Assembly: GCA_020848545.1 (NCBI GenBank)
Contig: JADLHZ010000125.1
Coordinates: 1-64,000 of the forward strand
DNA length: 64,000 bases
Direction of reading: 5' to 3'
From: Deltaproteobacteria bacterium
GTDB taxonomy: Bacteria; Myxococcota; JADLHZ01
The position numbers were made by a program, and so were the translations under genes. This document shows, piece after piece, positions 8,969 to 48,069 of this stretch (the stretch's first letter is position 1; every line of letters begins with the position of its first letter). The notes beneath the pieces were generated by a model. It made no database searches. It saw only the letters and a program-made list of their open reading frames with translations, and had not been told where the DNA came from.

Positions 8969-9060
8969 CCGAAAAGGGACCGGGGAAGATTCCGAAAAGG
9001 GACCGGGGAGGATTCCGAAAAGGGACCGGGGAGGATTCCGAAAAGGGACCGGGGAGCAAC
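8969..9060. repeat. Four tandem 23-bp GGGACC repeats at a convergent junction
   Basis: Four copies of a 23-bp unit beginning ccgaaaagggaccgggga start at 8969, 8992, 9015 and 9038, with only one or a few changes in copies one and four. They fill the gap between the kinase stop and the stop of the convergent barrel gene. There are no variable spacers, so this is not a CRISPR array. A solo copy occurs at 6015. Confidence 0.95.
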
Positions 9061-42791: not shown

Positions 42792-43517
42792 TCACTTCTT
42801 CGCAATCTCTTCGAGCGCCTTCGGGTCGCTCACCGCGTACGAGTCGCCTGACTTGAAGACGAGGTTGCGATCCTTCCACTCTTGCAGCGCGCGGATGATC
42901 GAGCGCCGGTTCACCGCCAGCGCGTCGCCGAGCTCGTCCTGCGTCAACGGCACGCGGATCTTGATCCCCCCGTCGATCGGCAAGCCGAAGAGCTCGAGGT
43001 ACGAGAGCAAGAGACGGGCGAGGCGCTTCTCGGTGGCGTCGTTGGCGAGCGCGCGCTGGTTGTACGCCGCCCGCGCGAGGCGGCGGCCGTCCTCGGCGAC
43101 GAGCAAGGTCATCATCTTGTCCGAGGTCTTCAGCGCTTCGGCGAGCGCGGGCCGAGGCACTTCGAGCACCTGGCAGAACTCGAGCGCGTCGACCGACGCG
43201 AGCGTGGGGATCTGCGCCAGCGTCTCGACGTGGCCGAAGAACGACGGCGCGCGCCGCAGCTCGTTGACGATCTGGCGACCGTCGTCCAGGTTGTGGCTCA
43301 CCTTGACCGCGCCCTTCAGGAGGATCACGAAGCTCGGATCCGGCGAGCCTTCTTTCATGATCACCGTGCCGGCGGCGACGTTCTTCAGTGTCCCGGCGAC
43401 GAGCACCTTCTGCACGACCTCTGCTTCCACGCCGGGCAAGAGATCGGCGCCGTCGATGGTCGCGTGCCGGCGGTCCGGTCGCTTGGGTCCGTCGCCCCCT
43501 TGGTTCGCTTGGGTCAT
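42792..43517 (-). CDS. Crp/Fnr-type transcription factor with noncanonical pocket
   Basis: This 241-residue regulator has an N-terminal cyclic-nucleotide-binding fold (about 30-150) and a C-terminal winged helix (LTQDELGDALAVNRRSIIRAL). The phosphate-binding cassette FGE....R-A is replaced by FFGHVETLAQIPTLASV, so canonical cAMP binding is doubtful. A hairpin covers its ribosome-binding site. The location directly before phoB suggests a link between another signal and phosphate control, which is an inference. Confidence 0.88.
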   Translation of the reverse strand: MTQANQGGDGPKRPDRRHATIDGADLLPGVEAEVVQKVLVAGTLKNVAAGTVIMKEGSPDPSFVILLKGAVKVSHNLDDGRQIVNELRRAPSFFGHVETLAQIPTLASVDALEFCQVLEVPRPALAEALKTSDKMMTLLVAEDGRRLARAAYNQRALANDATEKRLARLLLSYLELFGLPIDGGIKIRVPLTQDELGDALAVNRRSIIRALQEWKDRNLVFKSGDSYAVSDPKALEEIAKK

Positions 43518-43543
43518 GAGATCGCCTCCCGAGGAGGCCTCAT
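43516..43543 (-). promoter_or_regulatory. Hairpin over the ribosome-binding site of the Crp-type gene
   Basis: On the minus strand, GCCTCC pairs with GGAGGC around a TCG loop, and outer ATGAG pairs with CTCAT that includes the AT of the start codon, with a three-base bulge. GGAGG is the ribosome-binding site. The hairpin lies within the 27-base junction between the cyclic-nucleotide-binding gene and the Crp-type gene, so it could limit or couple translation. Confidence 0.6.
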
Positions 43544-43544
43544 C

Positions 43545-43985
43545 TCACTTGAGCTGAGCGTCGATCAACTGTTCCGCGCGTTTGAGCCCGACGAGGCCGA
43601 GCACCTGGCGGATCTTGGGATAGTCTTGGAGGATTTGCAGCACGTCGTTCTTCTCGAACGCGAGGCAGTGCACCTCGCCAATCGCCATGACGCTCGCCGT
43701 CCGTGGCTCGTCGTTCAACACGGCCATCTCGCCGAAGAACTGGCCCGCGGAGAGGCGCGCGACTTCCTTCGGCTCGTCGAGGCCGTCGGTCATCACGCGC
43801 ACCCCGCCGGTGATGATCAAGTAGAAGATGTTGCCGCGCTCGCCTTCCTTGATGATGACGCTGCTCGGTTTGAACTCGGCTGGCTTCGCCACTTTGGCCA
43901 ACCGATCGATGCCGGTGTCGTCCATGAGCGAAAACAACTTCGAGCTGCCCTTGAAGCGGTCGAGGTCGGCGCGGTTGTCGCTCAT
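43545..43985 (-). CDS. Cyclic-nucleotide-binding domain protein
   Basis: This 146-residue single-domain protein has the canonical phosphate-binding cassette FFGEMAVLNDEPRTASV, the Arg included, so binding of cAMP or cGMP is credible. It has no DNA-binding domain. It is in the same direction as the PilZ gene 16 bases upstream and the Crp-type gene downstream. It probably acts as a ligand-sensing module for another protein; the partner is unknown. Confidence 0.88.
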   Translation of the reverse strand: MSDNRADLDRFKGSSKLFSLMDDTGIDRLAKVAKPAEFKPSSVIIKEGERGNIFYLIITGGVRVMTDGLDEPKEVARLSAGQFFGEMAVLNDEPRTASVMAIGEVHCLAFEKNDVLQILQDYPKIRQVLGLVGLKRAEQLIDAQLK

Positions 43986-44001: not shown

Positions 44002-44643
44002 TCAATGCTTGCGTTTGCCGGGTTTGTTCGCGGGCTCGGGCGGCGGGGCTTTGACCGGCGTGCGCGCAGCTTGGGCTGGCGGCGGCTGGAAGATGGGCTT
44101 GTCGCCGCCGGGTCGCGCGGCTGCCTTCGCCGGCGTCTTCTGTTCGAGCATCGACGGCGGCGGCTTCACCGGCGCGACGCGGGTCTCTTCGATGAGCGCG
44201 TGGCGGTGGTCTTCCCAGAGGTTGACCACGAGCGCGAGGTCTTGCTCGGTCACACTCTGATCGAGGTGCGGGAACTGCTCGCGGAAGATCTTCGAGAAGG
44301 CGACGATGCGATCGGTGACGAAGTAGCGCAGCAGCGTTTCGTGGCTCTGCGGCGACAGCGCGCCGAACTTCACGGCGAAGCCGGGCGGATGCTCGCGATC
44401 GCCGAACTCGATGCGGCGGATGACCTCGCCGTTCAGGTTCAGGATCTCGTCGTTGCGCACCTCGAGATCGATCTCGACGGGCATGCCGATGCGCAGCAGG
44501 CCTTCGCTGTTGAGGAAGATACCGCTGATCGAGAGATCGCGGCTCGTGCAGTACATCTCGAAGATAAGGGCTTCTTTTTTGTTCACGAACACGCGCGCGG
44601 GACGCTGCAGCAGGATGCGTTCGTGCTTGATGCGCTCGACCAT
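44002..44643 (-). CDS. PilZ-domain protein with Pro-rich tail
   Basis: This 213-residue protein has a PilZ domain (about 5-110): the first arginine region is RILLQRPARV (spacing not the standard RxxxR) and DxSxxG is intact in RDLSISGIF. The middle is helical, and the C-terminal 60 residues are rich in Pro, Ala and Lys, ending KPGKRKH. Binding of cyclic di-GMP is likely but not assured. It heads the minus-strand run ending in phoU; a 20-bp inverted repeat lies five bases before its start. Confidence 0.85.
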   Translation of the reverse strand: MVERIKHERILLQRPARVFVNKKEALIFEMYCTSRDLSISGIFLNSEGLLRIGMPVEIDLEVRNDEILNLNGEVIRRIEFGDREHPPGFAVKFGALSPQSHETLLRYFVTDRIVAFSKIFREQFPHLDQSVTEQDLALVVNLWEDHRHALIEETRVAPVKPPPSMLEQKTPAKAAARPGGDKPIFQPPPAQAARTPVKAPPPEPANKPGKRKH

Positions 44644-44667: not shown

Positions 44668-44728
44668 AGACGTTCGCAACGAAAGGAGTGGGTGACGGAG
44701 AGGGCGGCGTCCGGTGTTGGGAGGGACC

Positions 44729-45073
44729 ATGAAAGTCATATTGGCCATCGGCCTCTTGGGCGTCGCCGCTTGCGGGTGGGAGCCGCTCGAATGGAAGGAC
44801 ACGGTTCGGGTCGGGGAACGCTTCGAACTCGTCACGCTGCAGGACCTCTTCGGGCGCGGCCTTGCGGTCCCCAGTGGATATTCGCTCACTTGTGATCCCG
44901 CGTTGCTCGCGTGCGGTCCGCCGCGGATCGGTCACCGCGGGCCGACGATGATCGAGCTCGAGGTGTTCCATGCGTGCGACGCGTTGGCGGTCGGGAGGAC
45001 GAAGTGCCGAGTCGCTGCGAGCGGGGGGAGCTTCGAGCGGGAGGTGGAGATCGTGAGTGACGGTGAACGCTGA
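44729..45073 (+). CDS. Small lipoprotein
   Basis: This 114-residue protein has a lipoprotein signal (LLGVAAC, Cys15). The mature part has two Cys-containing short beta segments (LTCDPALLACGPP, HACDALAVGRTKCRVAA). GGGAGGGA precedes the ATG at 44729. Its stop is immediately followed by a 13-bp tandem repeat. No family recognised. Confidence 0.7.
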   Translation: MKVILAIGLLGVAACGWEPLEWKDTVRVGERFELVTLQDLFGRGLAVPSGYSLTCDPALLACGPPRIGHRGPTMIELEVFHACDALAVGRTKCRVAASGGSFEREVEIVSDGER

Positions 45074-45136
45074 ACGTGACCCGTGAACGTGACCCGTGAA
45101 CGTGACCCGTGAACGTGACCCGTGAACGTGACCCGT
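45072..45136. repeat. Five tandem 13-bp repeats
   Basis: The unit gaacgtgacccgt occurs five times in perfect tandem and a sixth time partly. There are no spacers. The array starts in the stop codon of the small lipoprotein gene and ends about 75 bp before the left repeat of the RAYT element. Confidence 0.95.
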
Positions 45137-45210
45137 GAACGTGCTCGGGATCTGTGCTCGTGCTCGTCAACCCTGCTCGGGATGCCTGCTCTTCCACCCA
45201 TTCCGTCCGG

Positions 45211-45478
45211 CGCGGGATTTGGCTGGCTGCTGGCGCGGTCCCTCCCTTTGATCGGGAGTTTCGTTGCGCTCCTGCCGCGTTGCCGTTTCGACGTTGGGTT
45301 GCAACTCTGCGCTGCGATCGCGCTCCTGCGTGCTCCGGCGGGAGCGCGTGTGGTGCTCCGAACGTGCCTTTCGTGGCCGCCTCATGTCGCGCGCGGACGG
45401 GGGCGTGCCTGTGGCGGCTTTTCTCGGCGCGCGCGACGGGAGGGGATGGCTACGGGAGGCGATGGCGACGGGAGGCGA
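45211..45478 (+). repeat. Left inverted repeat of the RAYT element
   Basis: It pairs with 46493-46772. The best block, near 45300-45396, contains cgaacgtgcctttcgtggcc and is matched with few changes in the right arm. Near-tandem gacggga...ggatgg motifs at its inner end recur at the inner end of the right arm. Confidence 0.85.
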
Positions 45479-45628
45479 ATATCTCGTGCCTCAAGCCCCG
45501 CCGGGTTCGCCAGCCCATCGCGACGTGCAGCATCGACCTCGTGCAGCTTCGTGGTGTCCCGCTGGCTCTGCCGGTTCGTGCCCCCCCTCCAAAGAACAAT
45601 GTTCCTTCCCGCAAACTACATCTCGGTA

Positions 45629-45657
45629 TTGACATTGTCAATATATCTGCCTAGAAT
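45629..45657 (+). promoter_or_regulatory. Near-consensus promoter, probably leaderless, for the RAYT gene
   Basis: A perfect -35 TTGACA (45629-45634), a 17-base spacer and -10 TAGAAT (45652-45657) place the expected transcription start within a base or so of the ATG at 45665, which would give an mRNA without a leader. No ribosome-binding site is seen. TTGACATTGTCAA is itself palindromic, so a repressor could cover the -35. Confidence 0.75.
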
Positions 45658-45664
45658 TATTCCT

Positions 45665-46558
45665 ATGAAACGGATTCCCCGCCAGGCGATGTTGCCGTTT
45701 GGACGTTCCGAGCGGTCGGTGAATCGTCAGATCGCCGAGCGCATGGCCGGGAAGAAGGCGCGCGACATCAAGCGGGGGCCGGGCCGACCGCGGAAGCCGG
45801 TGGGGGCGAAGAAGATCGTGCCGCACACGCCGCGCCCATCTCTCGGAACCAACAGCGCGGTGCATGTGACGTTGAAGTTGCGCCGCCACGTACCCAACCT
45901 GCGAAATCGCAAGAAGTACGCGCTCGTGAAGAAGGCGTTTTCGCGCTTTCGCTTCGTGTCTCGTTCGTGTCCGCGCGTTGGGGCGCCCGGCGATGTGGTG
46001 CGGGTGGAGCACGGGTTTCGCTTGGTGCACTACGCGGTGCTCGGCGACCATGTGCACATGTTGTGCGAGGCCGACAGCGCGCGGTGGCTCGCGCGTGGGG
46101 TGCAGAAGCTCGCGATTAGCCTCGCTCGTTTGCTCAACGCCGCAGGGGTGCGCGAGGCGGGTGGGTCACTCGATCCGCGCGCGGGATCGTTTCGCGAGCG
46201 GGCAGGGTGGATCGGGAAGATCTTCGCCGAACGCTATCATCTACACGCGCTCGCCACGCCGACCGAGATCGCCGCGTGCCTCGATTATTTGTTCACGAAC
46301 GCGTCGAAGCACTTCGCAGGTATCAACGCCGTTCGCTGCAAGATCACGCTCGCCACTGGCACTACGCGTTACCTCGACATCGACGGCTTCACCTCGTTCG
46401 CGGAGCTGCACACGAGCGCCGATCCGCCGATGGCGCCGCCTCGCGGCACGCTCCTCCGCAAAGAACTCCGCAAGACCCCCTGGGCCTCAGGTGACGCCGC
46501 TTCCCGTCGCGCCAATCCTTCCCGTCGCCCCAATTCGTATCGTCGCGCGCGTCACTGA
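45665..46558 (+). CDS. REP-associated tyrosine transposase (RAYT)
   Basis: This 297-residue protein belongs to the IS200/IS605-related Y1 transposase family. The HUH motif is HVH (129-131) in GDHVHMLCEA, and the probable catalytic Tyr208 lies in CLDYLFTNASKHFAG, as in RAYTs; FAERYHLHAL is another family block. RAYTs cut and join single-stranded DNA at palindromic REP sequences. The N-terminus has an AT-hook-like GRPRKP (about 40-45) in a Lys/Arg-rich arm. The final 22 residues are encoded inside the right inverted repeat. A strong leaderless promoter precedes it. Confidence 0.92.
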   Translation: MKRIPRQAMLPFGRSERSVNRQIAERMAGKKARDIKRGPGRPRKPVGAKKIVPHTPRPSLGTNSAVHVTLKLRRHVPNLRNRKKYALVKKAFSRFRFVSRSCPRVGAPGDVVRVEHGFRLVHYAVLGDHVHMLCEADSARWLARGVQKLAISLARLLNAAGVREAGGSLDPRAGSFRERAGWIGKIFAERYHLHALATPTEIAACLDYLFTNASKHFAGINAVRCKITLATGTTRYLDIDGFTSFAELHTSADPPMAPPRGTLLRKELRKTPWASGDAASRRANPSRRPNSYRRARH

Positions 46559-46772
46559 GGTCGCCGCACGATCAGCACCCTTCGCGCGCGACATGAGGCG
46601 GCCACGAAAGGCACGTTCGGAGTACCAAGCCCCGCTCCCGCCGGAGCACACGAAAGCGCGATCGCAGCTCGAAGTCGCAACCCAAAGTGGCAGCAGCAAC
46701 GTGGAGCAAACGCCACGAACGGACCAAGCAAAGGGAAAGCCCGCGCCTGCAGCCAACGGAAACCGCGCGGGC
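46493..46772 (-). repeat. Right inverted repeat of the RAYT element
   Basis: It is the complement of the left arm, strongest at 46583-46690. It covers the last 66 bases of the transposase gene, so the protein's Arg/Pro-rich tail (PSRRPNSYRRARH) is repeat-derived. It also occupies the convergent junction with waaA. Confidence 0.85.
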
Positions 46773-46842
46773 AATGCACCACGCAAGGAGCACCACGCAA
46801 GGAGCACCTCGAGCGCCACGCACCACGCCACCCGCAAACGCC

Positions 46843-48069
46843 CTACCGCAGCAACTCCGCCAAATGCGCCGCGTTCCGCTTCGCCGCGCCCTTCACGCTC
46901 ATCACCGCGTCATGCGCCAACGCGCCGAGCTTCTGGATCTCGTCCGGCCGCTCGAGCAGCTCCTGCGTCACCCGAAACAATTGCTCCGGATCCTTCACCT
47001 GTGTGCCGCCGCGGCCGAGCAGCACCTGCACGCTGTCGGCGAAGTTCTGCATGTGCGGCCCGAAGGTGACAGGCTTTCCGTGCGCGGCCGGCTCCAAGAT
47101 GTTCTGCCCGCCGCGGCTGACGAACGAGCCGCCGATGAACACGAGCGTGCCGGCGCCGTACCAGTCGAAGAGCTCGCCGATGGTGTCGATGACGAGCACG
47201 TCGGCGCCGCGCTGCGGGTTCGTGCGCAAGCAGCCGTGGAGCAGCTCACGGACCTTTTTCGCGCGCTCCACGTAGCGGGGCGCGACGATCAGCTTGAGCC
47301 GCGGCCAGCGCGTCTTCAGCCGGCGATAGCCGTCGAGCAGCTTCTCCTCCTCGCCCTCGTGGGTGCTGCCCCACACCCAGACCATGTCGTCCTTCTGCCA
47401 GCCGAGCGCGTCGACGACTTTGCGCAGCGACTCCGGCGCCGGTCCCGGCTCCCGCAGGTTGTCGAACTTCGTGTTGCCGGTGACGTGCACGCGATCGATG
47501 TGCGCGCCGAGCTCGATGGCCCGCGCCGCTTCTTCCTCGTCGCGCATCAGCAGGAGATCGAGATCGTCGAGCACGTTGCCGATCGCGCGAAAGAGCAGCT
47601 TATAGTTGGCGAGGTTCTTCGCCGAGAAGCGCCCGTTGTGCAGGACGACCTTGGCGCCGGCCTTCTTCGCCGCCGAGATGAAGTTCGGCCAGAGCTCCGT
47701 GTATTCGAGCACCAGGATCTTCGGGCGCACTTCCTCGAGCGCGCGGCGTGCCGAGAACGGCATGTCGTAGGGCGCATAGCGGAGCGGCACGTCCTTGAAC
47801 TCGCGCTCGCCCATCGCGCGGCCGCTGTTCGTGATCGTCGACAACATGGGCACGACGCGCGGCTCAAGCTGGCGCAGCGCGGTGATCGTCGGTCGCAGCG
47901 CCAAGAGGTCGCCCGCCGACGCGCCGTGGAACCACACGCGCAGGCCTTCGTCGAGCGCCGGGCCGTGCTCGAGGCCGAGCCGTTGGCGGACGCCGTCGCG
48001 CAATTTGGGATGACCCAAAAAGAGCGGCGCGAGGGCGCCGTGGGCAACGTACGAGAGGGCAGAGTACAA
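46843..48069 (-). CDS. waaA: Kdo transferase WaaA (KdtA)
   Basis: This 408-residue GT30 enzyme adds 3-deoxy-D-manno-octulosonic acid to lipid A precursor at the inner membrane. Family blocks are VWFHGASAGDLLALRPTI, VLEYTELWPNFISAAKKAGAKV, VTGNTKFDN and ILEPAAHGKPVTFGPHMQNF. No ATG or GTG starts it in frame: TTG at 48069 is the best, or CTG at 48078, giving LRFLYSALSY as in homologues. It confirms a Gram-negative lipopolysaccharide envelope. Confidence 0.93.
   Translation of the reverse strand: MYSALSYVAHGALAPLFLGHPKLRDGVRQRLGLEHGPALDEGLRVWFHGASAGDLLALRPTITALRQLEPRVVPMLSTITNSGRAMGEREFKDVPLRYAPYDMPFSARRALEEVRPKILVLEYTELWPNFISAAKKAGAKVVLHNGRFSAKNLANYKLLFRAIGNVLDDLDLLLMRDEEEAARAIELGAHIDRVHVTGNTKFDNLREPGPAPESLRKVVDALGWQKDDMVWVWGSTHEGEEEKLLDGYRRLKTRWPRLKLIVAPRYVERAKKVRELLHGCLRTNPQRGADVLVIDTIGELFDWYGAGTLVFIGGSFVSRGGQNILEPAAHGKPVTFGPHMQNFADSVQVLLGRGGTQVKDPEQLFRVTQELLERPDEIQKLGALAHDAVMSVKGAAKRNAAHLAELLR

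Follow-up and report, generated by a model that had tools for sequence, protein, structure and literature searches.

Long inverted arms enclose a RAYT-like transposase gene and recur with it across one myxococcotal genome

Among the described systems that are built around RAYT-like genes, those closest to the locus considered here are the TIRtrons or TIRYTs, in which, according to Di Nocera et al. 2013 (PMC3733652), such genes lie between long terminal inverted repeats (TIRs), and which fall mostly in the TnpA_Y1 subclass 2.1 (Quentin et al. 2018, PMC6006769). The former paper gives a GGGGWSAS motif as common to some of these TIRs, not to all, so that it is not strictly defining. Class 2 has the Y motif Y---NP, and its TnpA_REP genes are low in copy number and divergent within genomes (PMC6006769). 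REPs measure 20-40 bp, and a genome holds tens to hundreds of scattered copies of them (PMC2817692, PMC3116915); they are also described between unidirectional and convergent genes, and REPtrons as unable to self-propagate, in PMC3733652. Finally, the IS200/IS605 elements are characterized by short subterminal hairpin ends and near-identical copies (PMC6006769).

The locus and its transposase gene

The window, that is, the whole stretch of 64,000 nucleotides analysed, belongs to a contig (C125) of a genome of 7.99 Mb in 163 contigs. A preliminary description of this DNA had reported a RAYT gene enclosed by imperfect inverted repeats of about 270 bp, the right one of which overlaps the coding end, and both statements are borne out (Table 1). 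In a repeat search of the window, the stronger inverted matches pair 45215-45346 with 46633-46764 at 74% and 45351-45416 with 46562-46627 at 85%, while weaker inner matches extend both arms to approximately the limits given in the table; blastn joins the arms in a single alignment of 216 bp with 76% identity (E ~1e-39), and their length is about 225-270 bp. The conserved core of the left arm covers 45215-45438, its weaker inner extension including a 16-bp tandem repeat, and the core of the right arm, 46541-46764, reaches into the last codons of the transposase gene, which also hold the inner half (46542-46551) of the right-arm dyad. An exact internal block, previously set at 20 bp, does exist, but the longest one measures 40 bp, and its positions are mostly invariant columns across ten family A arms.

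Table 1. Features of the window copy (window coordinates) and of the related contig-end repeats (contig coordinates)
Feature	Position	Strand	Basis
Left (upstream) arm, family A	45211..45478	+	repeat search; family A HMM 45208-45458, 196 bits
40-bp exact block, left copy, CTCCGAACGTGCCTTTCGTGGCCGCCTCATGTCGCGCGCG	45356..45395	+	read from sequence
Left arm inner dyad, GTCGCGCGCG (45386-45395) and CGCGCGCGAC (45428-45437), variable 32-nt loop	45386..45437	+	RNAalifold, A arms
Sigma-70-like promoter TTGACA-17-TAGAAT, 7 nt before ATG	45629..45657	+	upstream-block alignment
RAYT-like Y1 (HUH/Tyr) transposase, 297 aa	45665..46558 (incl. stop)	+	NCBIfam, Pfam, fold match, alignment
Right (downstream) arm, family A, inverted	46498..46772	-	repeat search; family A HMM 46522-46767, 211 bits
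Right arm inner dyad	46542..46592	-	sequence, RNAalifold
40-bp exact block, right copy	46583..46622	-	read from sequence
D-like contig-end repeats (L171-L175)	C125:127682-127808, C75:4254-4419, C46:40699-40797, C34:32-127, C18:63-191		

The neighbours of the unit are a small unassigned ORF (44714-45073, +) on its left and, on its right, a KDO-transferase gene (46843-48069, -). Further upstream, 42792-43985 (-) encodes a pair of neighbouring cyclic-nucleotide-binding proteins, of which one has a Crp-like HTH, and a PilZ protein adjoins this pair at 44002-44643 (-). Short tandem repeats occur at 45071-45143, 45433-45478, 46776-46808 and 8969-9056 of the window, as well as at the C143 contig end, with units such as TGAACGTGACCCG (x5.6), CCGAAAAGGGACCGGGGAGGATT (x3.8) and CCCGAACG (many times); they lie in or beside many of the elements described below and also elsewhere in the window.

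The transposase carries an AT-hook-like KRGPGRPRKP motif, the HUH motif DHVH (H129, H131) and the tyrosines Y191 and Y208, the latter beginning the YLFTNA motif of the window copy. Both histidines and both tyrosines are invariant in 15 aligned copies, as are N212 and A213. NCBIfam NF047646 (REP_Tyr_transpos) is matched at E 3e-7 with 30.4 bits, which is under the curated cut-off of 80, and Pfam Y1_Tnp at E 0.035 by the window copy and 9e-5 by the best copy, all 15 aligned copies matching with E values up to 1. The AlphaFold2 model combines a confident core with weak tails (mean pLDDT 58.9), and the top PDB fold match of this predicted structure is 4er8, a RAYT bound to a REP hairpin, further matches being ISDra2/IS608 TnpA (2xm3 among them). 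For the C-terminal region, which in subclass 2.1 holds a helix-turn-helix domain and where the predicted model is of low confidence, Pfam yields no HTH family. The search for anti-phage defence families gave no match.

In most sister copies the promoter reads TTGACA-16-TATAAT, and the upstream block is conserved in most of them. Because this conserved block ends 7 nt before the ATG, the transposase mRNA is likely to be leaderless, as far as spacing and conservation indicate. The -35 box is located within a small palindrome (window 45628-45643), reading TTGACATTGTCAA here and TTGACAAATCAA in sister copies, and this palindrome may be an operator by which the transposase controls itself.

Copies, arm families and their history

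Protein and profile searches recovered 16 RAYT copies in the genome, and about 17 units of the arm-RAYT-arm type are scattered through it, both counts resting on searches of the genome contigs. When upstream and downstream flanks were compared, both arms were recognized in 13 of the 16 copies and were inverted in all 13, whereas C6a and C135 have a single recognizable arm each and C67 begins at a contig end; four copies (C151, C6a, C6b and C7b) are damaged. Outside the arms, the 1.5-kb flanks of the 13 copies share one weak match only, from which we infer that the arms are the outer limits of the unit (about 1.56 kb in the window copy) and that this unit has been mobile. The suggestion of a distinct RAYT-element layout is thereby supported: the arms are present around most of the close homologues of the transposase, and 13 loci that are otherwise unrelated show the same arrangement, the arms being outermost.

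Searches of the genome with the consensus of the A, B and C arms gave matches almost only at RAYT loci, with two exceptions. One is an A-A arm pair on C27 that keeps a C-terminal RAYT remnant and so represents a unit with an internal deletion; the other is a B arm truncated by the end of contig C143. The possibility that the arms are dispersed repeats of the REP type was rejected, since nearly all matches lie beside RAYTs. The deleted A-A element (L022:3104-3559) is about 0.46 kb long, retains 17 aa of the RAYT, resembles a MITE and is itself situated between convergent genes. Genes called on the basis of GC3 place 9 of 15 elements in the gap between two convergent genes, the ends of which are 0-132 bp away from the arm tips, and no element of the 15 is inside a gene; a hand calculation puts this convergent bias at p ~0.004 under the naive expectation of one quarter. 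Visual inspection of the estimated tips revealed no target duplications.

The arms sort into four related sequence families. Family A comprises the arms of the window copy (A/A), C13, C6b and C44b and one arm of C73; family B those of C142, C151, C135, C6a and C143 and one arm each of C73, C31 and C44a; family C those of C18 and C7 and the remaining arms of C31 and C44a; and family D those of C90 and C7b. Three elements thus combine two families, namely C73 (B/A) and C31 and C44a (both C/B). Arm lengths range from 150 to 280 bp across copies, and the family HMMs cross-match weakly, mostly at E 1e-7 to 1e-3, the four families having a common core that by eye reads TGC-n-CGGC-n-G followed by GCC/GGC-GCCT-nn-ATG; the conserved outer tip, likewise by eye, is TGGCGCGG or CACTTAGCGCG. 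The single-strand folding of the arms is no better than that of shuffles (z-scores -1.1 to 0.3), and Rfam gives no match. Overall, with RNAalifold covariation being slight, a fold that is both strong and conserved, whether of RNA or of DNA, is unsupported. The family A inner dyad alone stands out, as 97% of its cells are paired and it shows a single compensatory change, but its covariation is not significant.

The values obtained within RAYT clades, about 0.35-0.58 for pS and about 0.10-0.25 for dN/dS, mark the copies as old and under purifying selection. The arm cores are 75-85% alike (whole-alignment mean 64-68%), and the arms look constrained because about half of the synonymous sites differ; the divergence between two arms is about the same within an element as between elements. 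None of the A-D copies is recent, given that about half of the synonymous sites have changed between RAYT copies, and these families may no longer be mobile. In the protein tree only the C13/C6b/C44b and C142-C135 groups are well resolved. The 5' half of the C31 gene is nearest to C135 and its 3' end to C44a/C151, and C73 has a B/C-type promoter, its first 100 bp being marginally nearer to the B/C types and the rest like the window copy. Because the mixed arms coincide with this mosaic gene similarity, clear in C31 and slight in C73, recombination between copies appears to be their best explanation. The idea that the transposase swaps arms as modules was also considered and set aside, as homologous recombination between copies suffices.

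A D arm query additionally matches five contig ends that carry a D-like arm, 75% alike to D and 87-100% to one another, each beginning with CTCTCGATACGTCACATCTC at a single sharp junction that follows unrelated flanks. They are probably the collapsed ends of a sister element whose interior is absent from the assembly, and their near identity suggests that this putative sister moved recently.

Across 195 genomes of the phylum, with two candidates scored per genome, there were neither DNA-level copies nor close relatives offering empty sites. Protein relatives that share about 35% identity and are present in several copies occur in the phylum and in Planctomycetota, and the arm-RAYT-arm layout was not found around them: long inverted arms are absent at 25 loci, mostly from Planctomycetota, and at about 45 loci of the phylum, bar a few short matches of 23-76 bp. 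Thus, long arms are not needed by the wider transposase group, and the long-arm layout is known so far only from the present genome. For instance, the Planctomycetota MAG Prado171 (L082-L094, L101-L104) holds a RAYT relative of about 36% identity in 15 or more copies, which have no inverted arms but share a conserved stretch of 60-260 bp upstream.

Mobility and its alternatives

Taken together, these observations lead us to regard the window copy, with a probability of roughly 0.7, as a member of an IS-like mobile family composed of a Y1 HUH transposase, its own promoter and long imperfect inverted ends. By analogy with the way RAYTs deal with REP hairpins, the transposase would recognize motifs in either arm, structured ones or dyads, in single-stranded form and would cut at the conserved outer tips; the entire unit would then move, preferring the space just past the stop codons between convergent genes, and the arms would belong to the element as ends without which it does not transpose, instead of being independent REP-like repeats. 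Arm recognition, tip cleavage, the single-stranded route and any present activity of the unit are thus what we infer from the features described above. More tentatively, at somewhat less than even odds, the elements may constitute a class of self-propagating RAYT transposons with obligate long arms (150-280 bp, of interchangeable families), intermediate between IS200 and REP/RAYT, inserting preferentially at convergent junctions and possibly including a recently active D-like sister.

A rather unlikely alternative is that the copies have been domesticated, the RAYTs serving the host while the arms, having ceased to be transposition ends, persist beside genes in a regulatory or terminator role. 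The low dN/dS of such old copies, with none of the A-D copies recent, and the bias to convergent gene ends would agree with it, as would the low-copy, divergent nature of class 2 TnpA_REP genes noted above (PMC6006769); however, the presence of 16 copies at unrelated loci requires past mobility with the arms as limits, damaged copies exist, and a D-like arm is nearly identical at five contig ends. It is decidedly improbable that the arms belong to some other transposon, a MITE or a DDE element, in which the RAYT is a passenger, for they hardly ever occur without a RAYT and stay with RAYTs down to 47% identity (C90), even though elements of other types typically bear long inverted repeats and the relatives at about 35% identity manage without arms.

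The preliminary description had also raised the idea of two diverged insertions in opposite orientation, here taken as independent solo repeats on either side of the RAYT gene. Such an origin would account for arms that differ within an element about as much as between elements, and for the three elements with arms of different families, but it goes unsupported and must be considered very improbable: solo arms are practically absent, 13 of 13 pairs are inverted, and the mixed arms match the mosaic similarity of the genes as copy recombination would give. As to a chance resemblance, for which the high G+C and the short tandem repeats nearby might speak, it has a negligible probability, the true arm pair scoring 153 bits in the blastn control against a maximum of 26.5 in 100 dinucleotide shuffles and of 25.6 in random stretches of the window, which excludes low complexity as the source of the arm similarity.

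In REP/RAYT systems it is the small repeats that spread, and not the gene for the transposase, whereas here the whole unit has spread, which may bear on how REP-like repeats arose from transposon ends. The ends seen here are long, partly structured and tied to the gene, have diversified into families and appear to have been exchanged between copies; with about 26 paired ends, this one genome offers a natural set from which to read and test what a RAYT-like enzyme recognizes.

Relation to described element types

The layout is a distinct one, although it is not wholly unprecedented, as the TIRtrons/TIRYTs had already been reported in PMC3733652. With these it shares a RAYT-like HUH and Tyr transposase, long flanking inverted repeats unrelated to GTAG REPs and, as that paper also describes, a repeat overlapping the gene end. 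It differs from them in having four homologous arm families in one genome and in that multiple copies exist of the complete unit instead of the TIR; moreover, GGGGWSAS, present in many TIRtron TIRs, is missing from 27 of the 28 present arms, and the Y motif, YLFTNA in the window copy, diverges from the Y---NP of class 2.

REPtrons resemble the unit in the predicted transposase fold (top match 4er8) and in the inverted order of the flanking repeats. In contrast to them, the arms here are 150-280 bp long, locked to the element and found almost only beside RAYTs, the unit is multi-copy, the flanking repeats are not short high-copy palindromes tagged with GT[AG]G, and the score for the NCBIfam REP-associated tyrosine transposase lies below the curated cut-off. 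Similarly, a Y1 HUH transposase, dispersal as a unit and target duplication not being seen recall IS200/IS605, whereas the long, inverted ends and the old copies do not; from a DDE insertion sequence the unit is set apart by its predicted Y1 fold and by the lack of a direct repeat, by eye, at the estimated tips. On the best reading of the features tested, therefore, the unit is a variant of the TIRtron/TIRYT kind, and neither a REPtron nor an IS200/IS605 element, a variant that is new because whole units have spread while the arms have not, the reverse of REP/RAYT.
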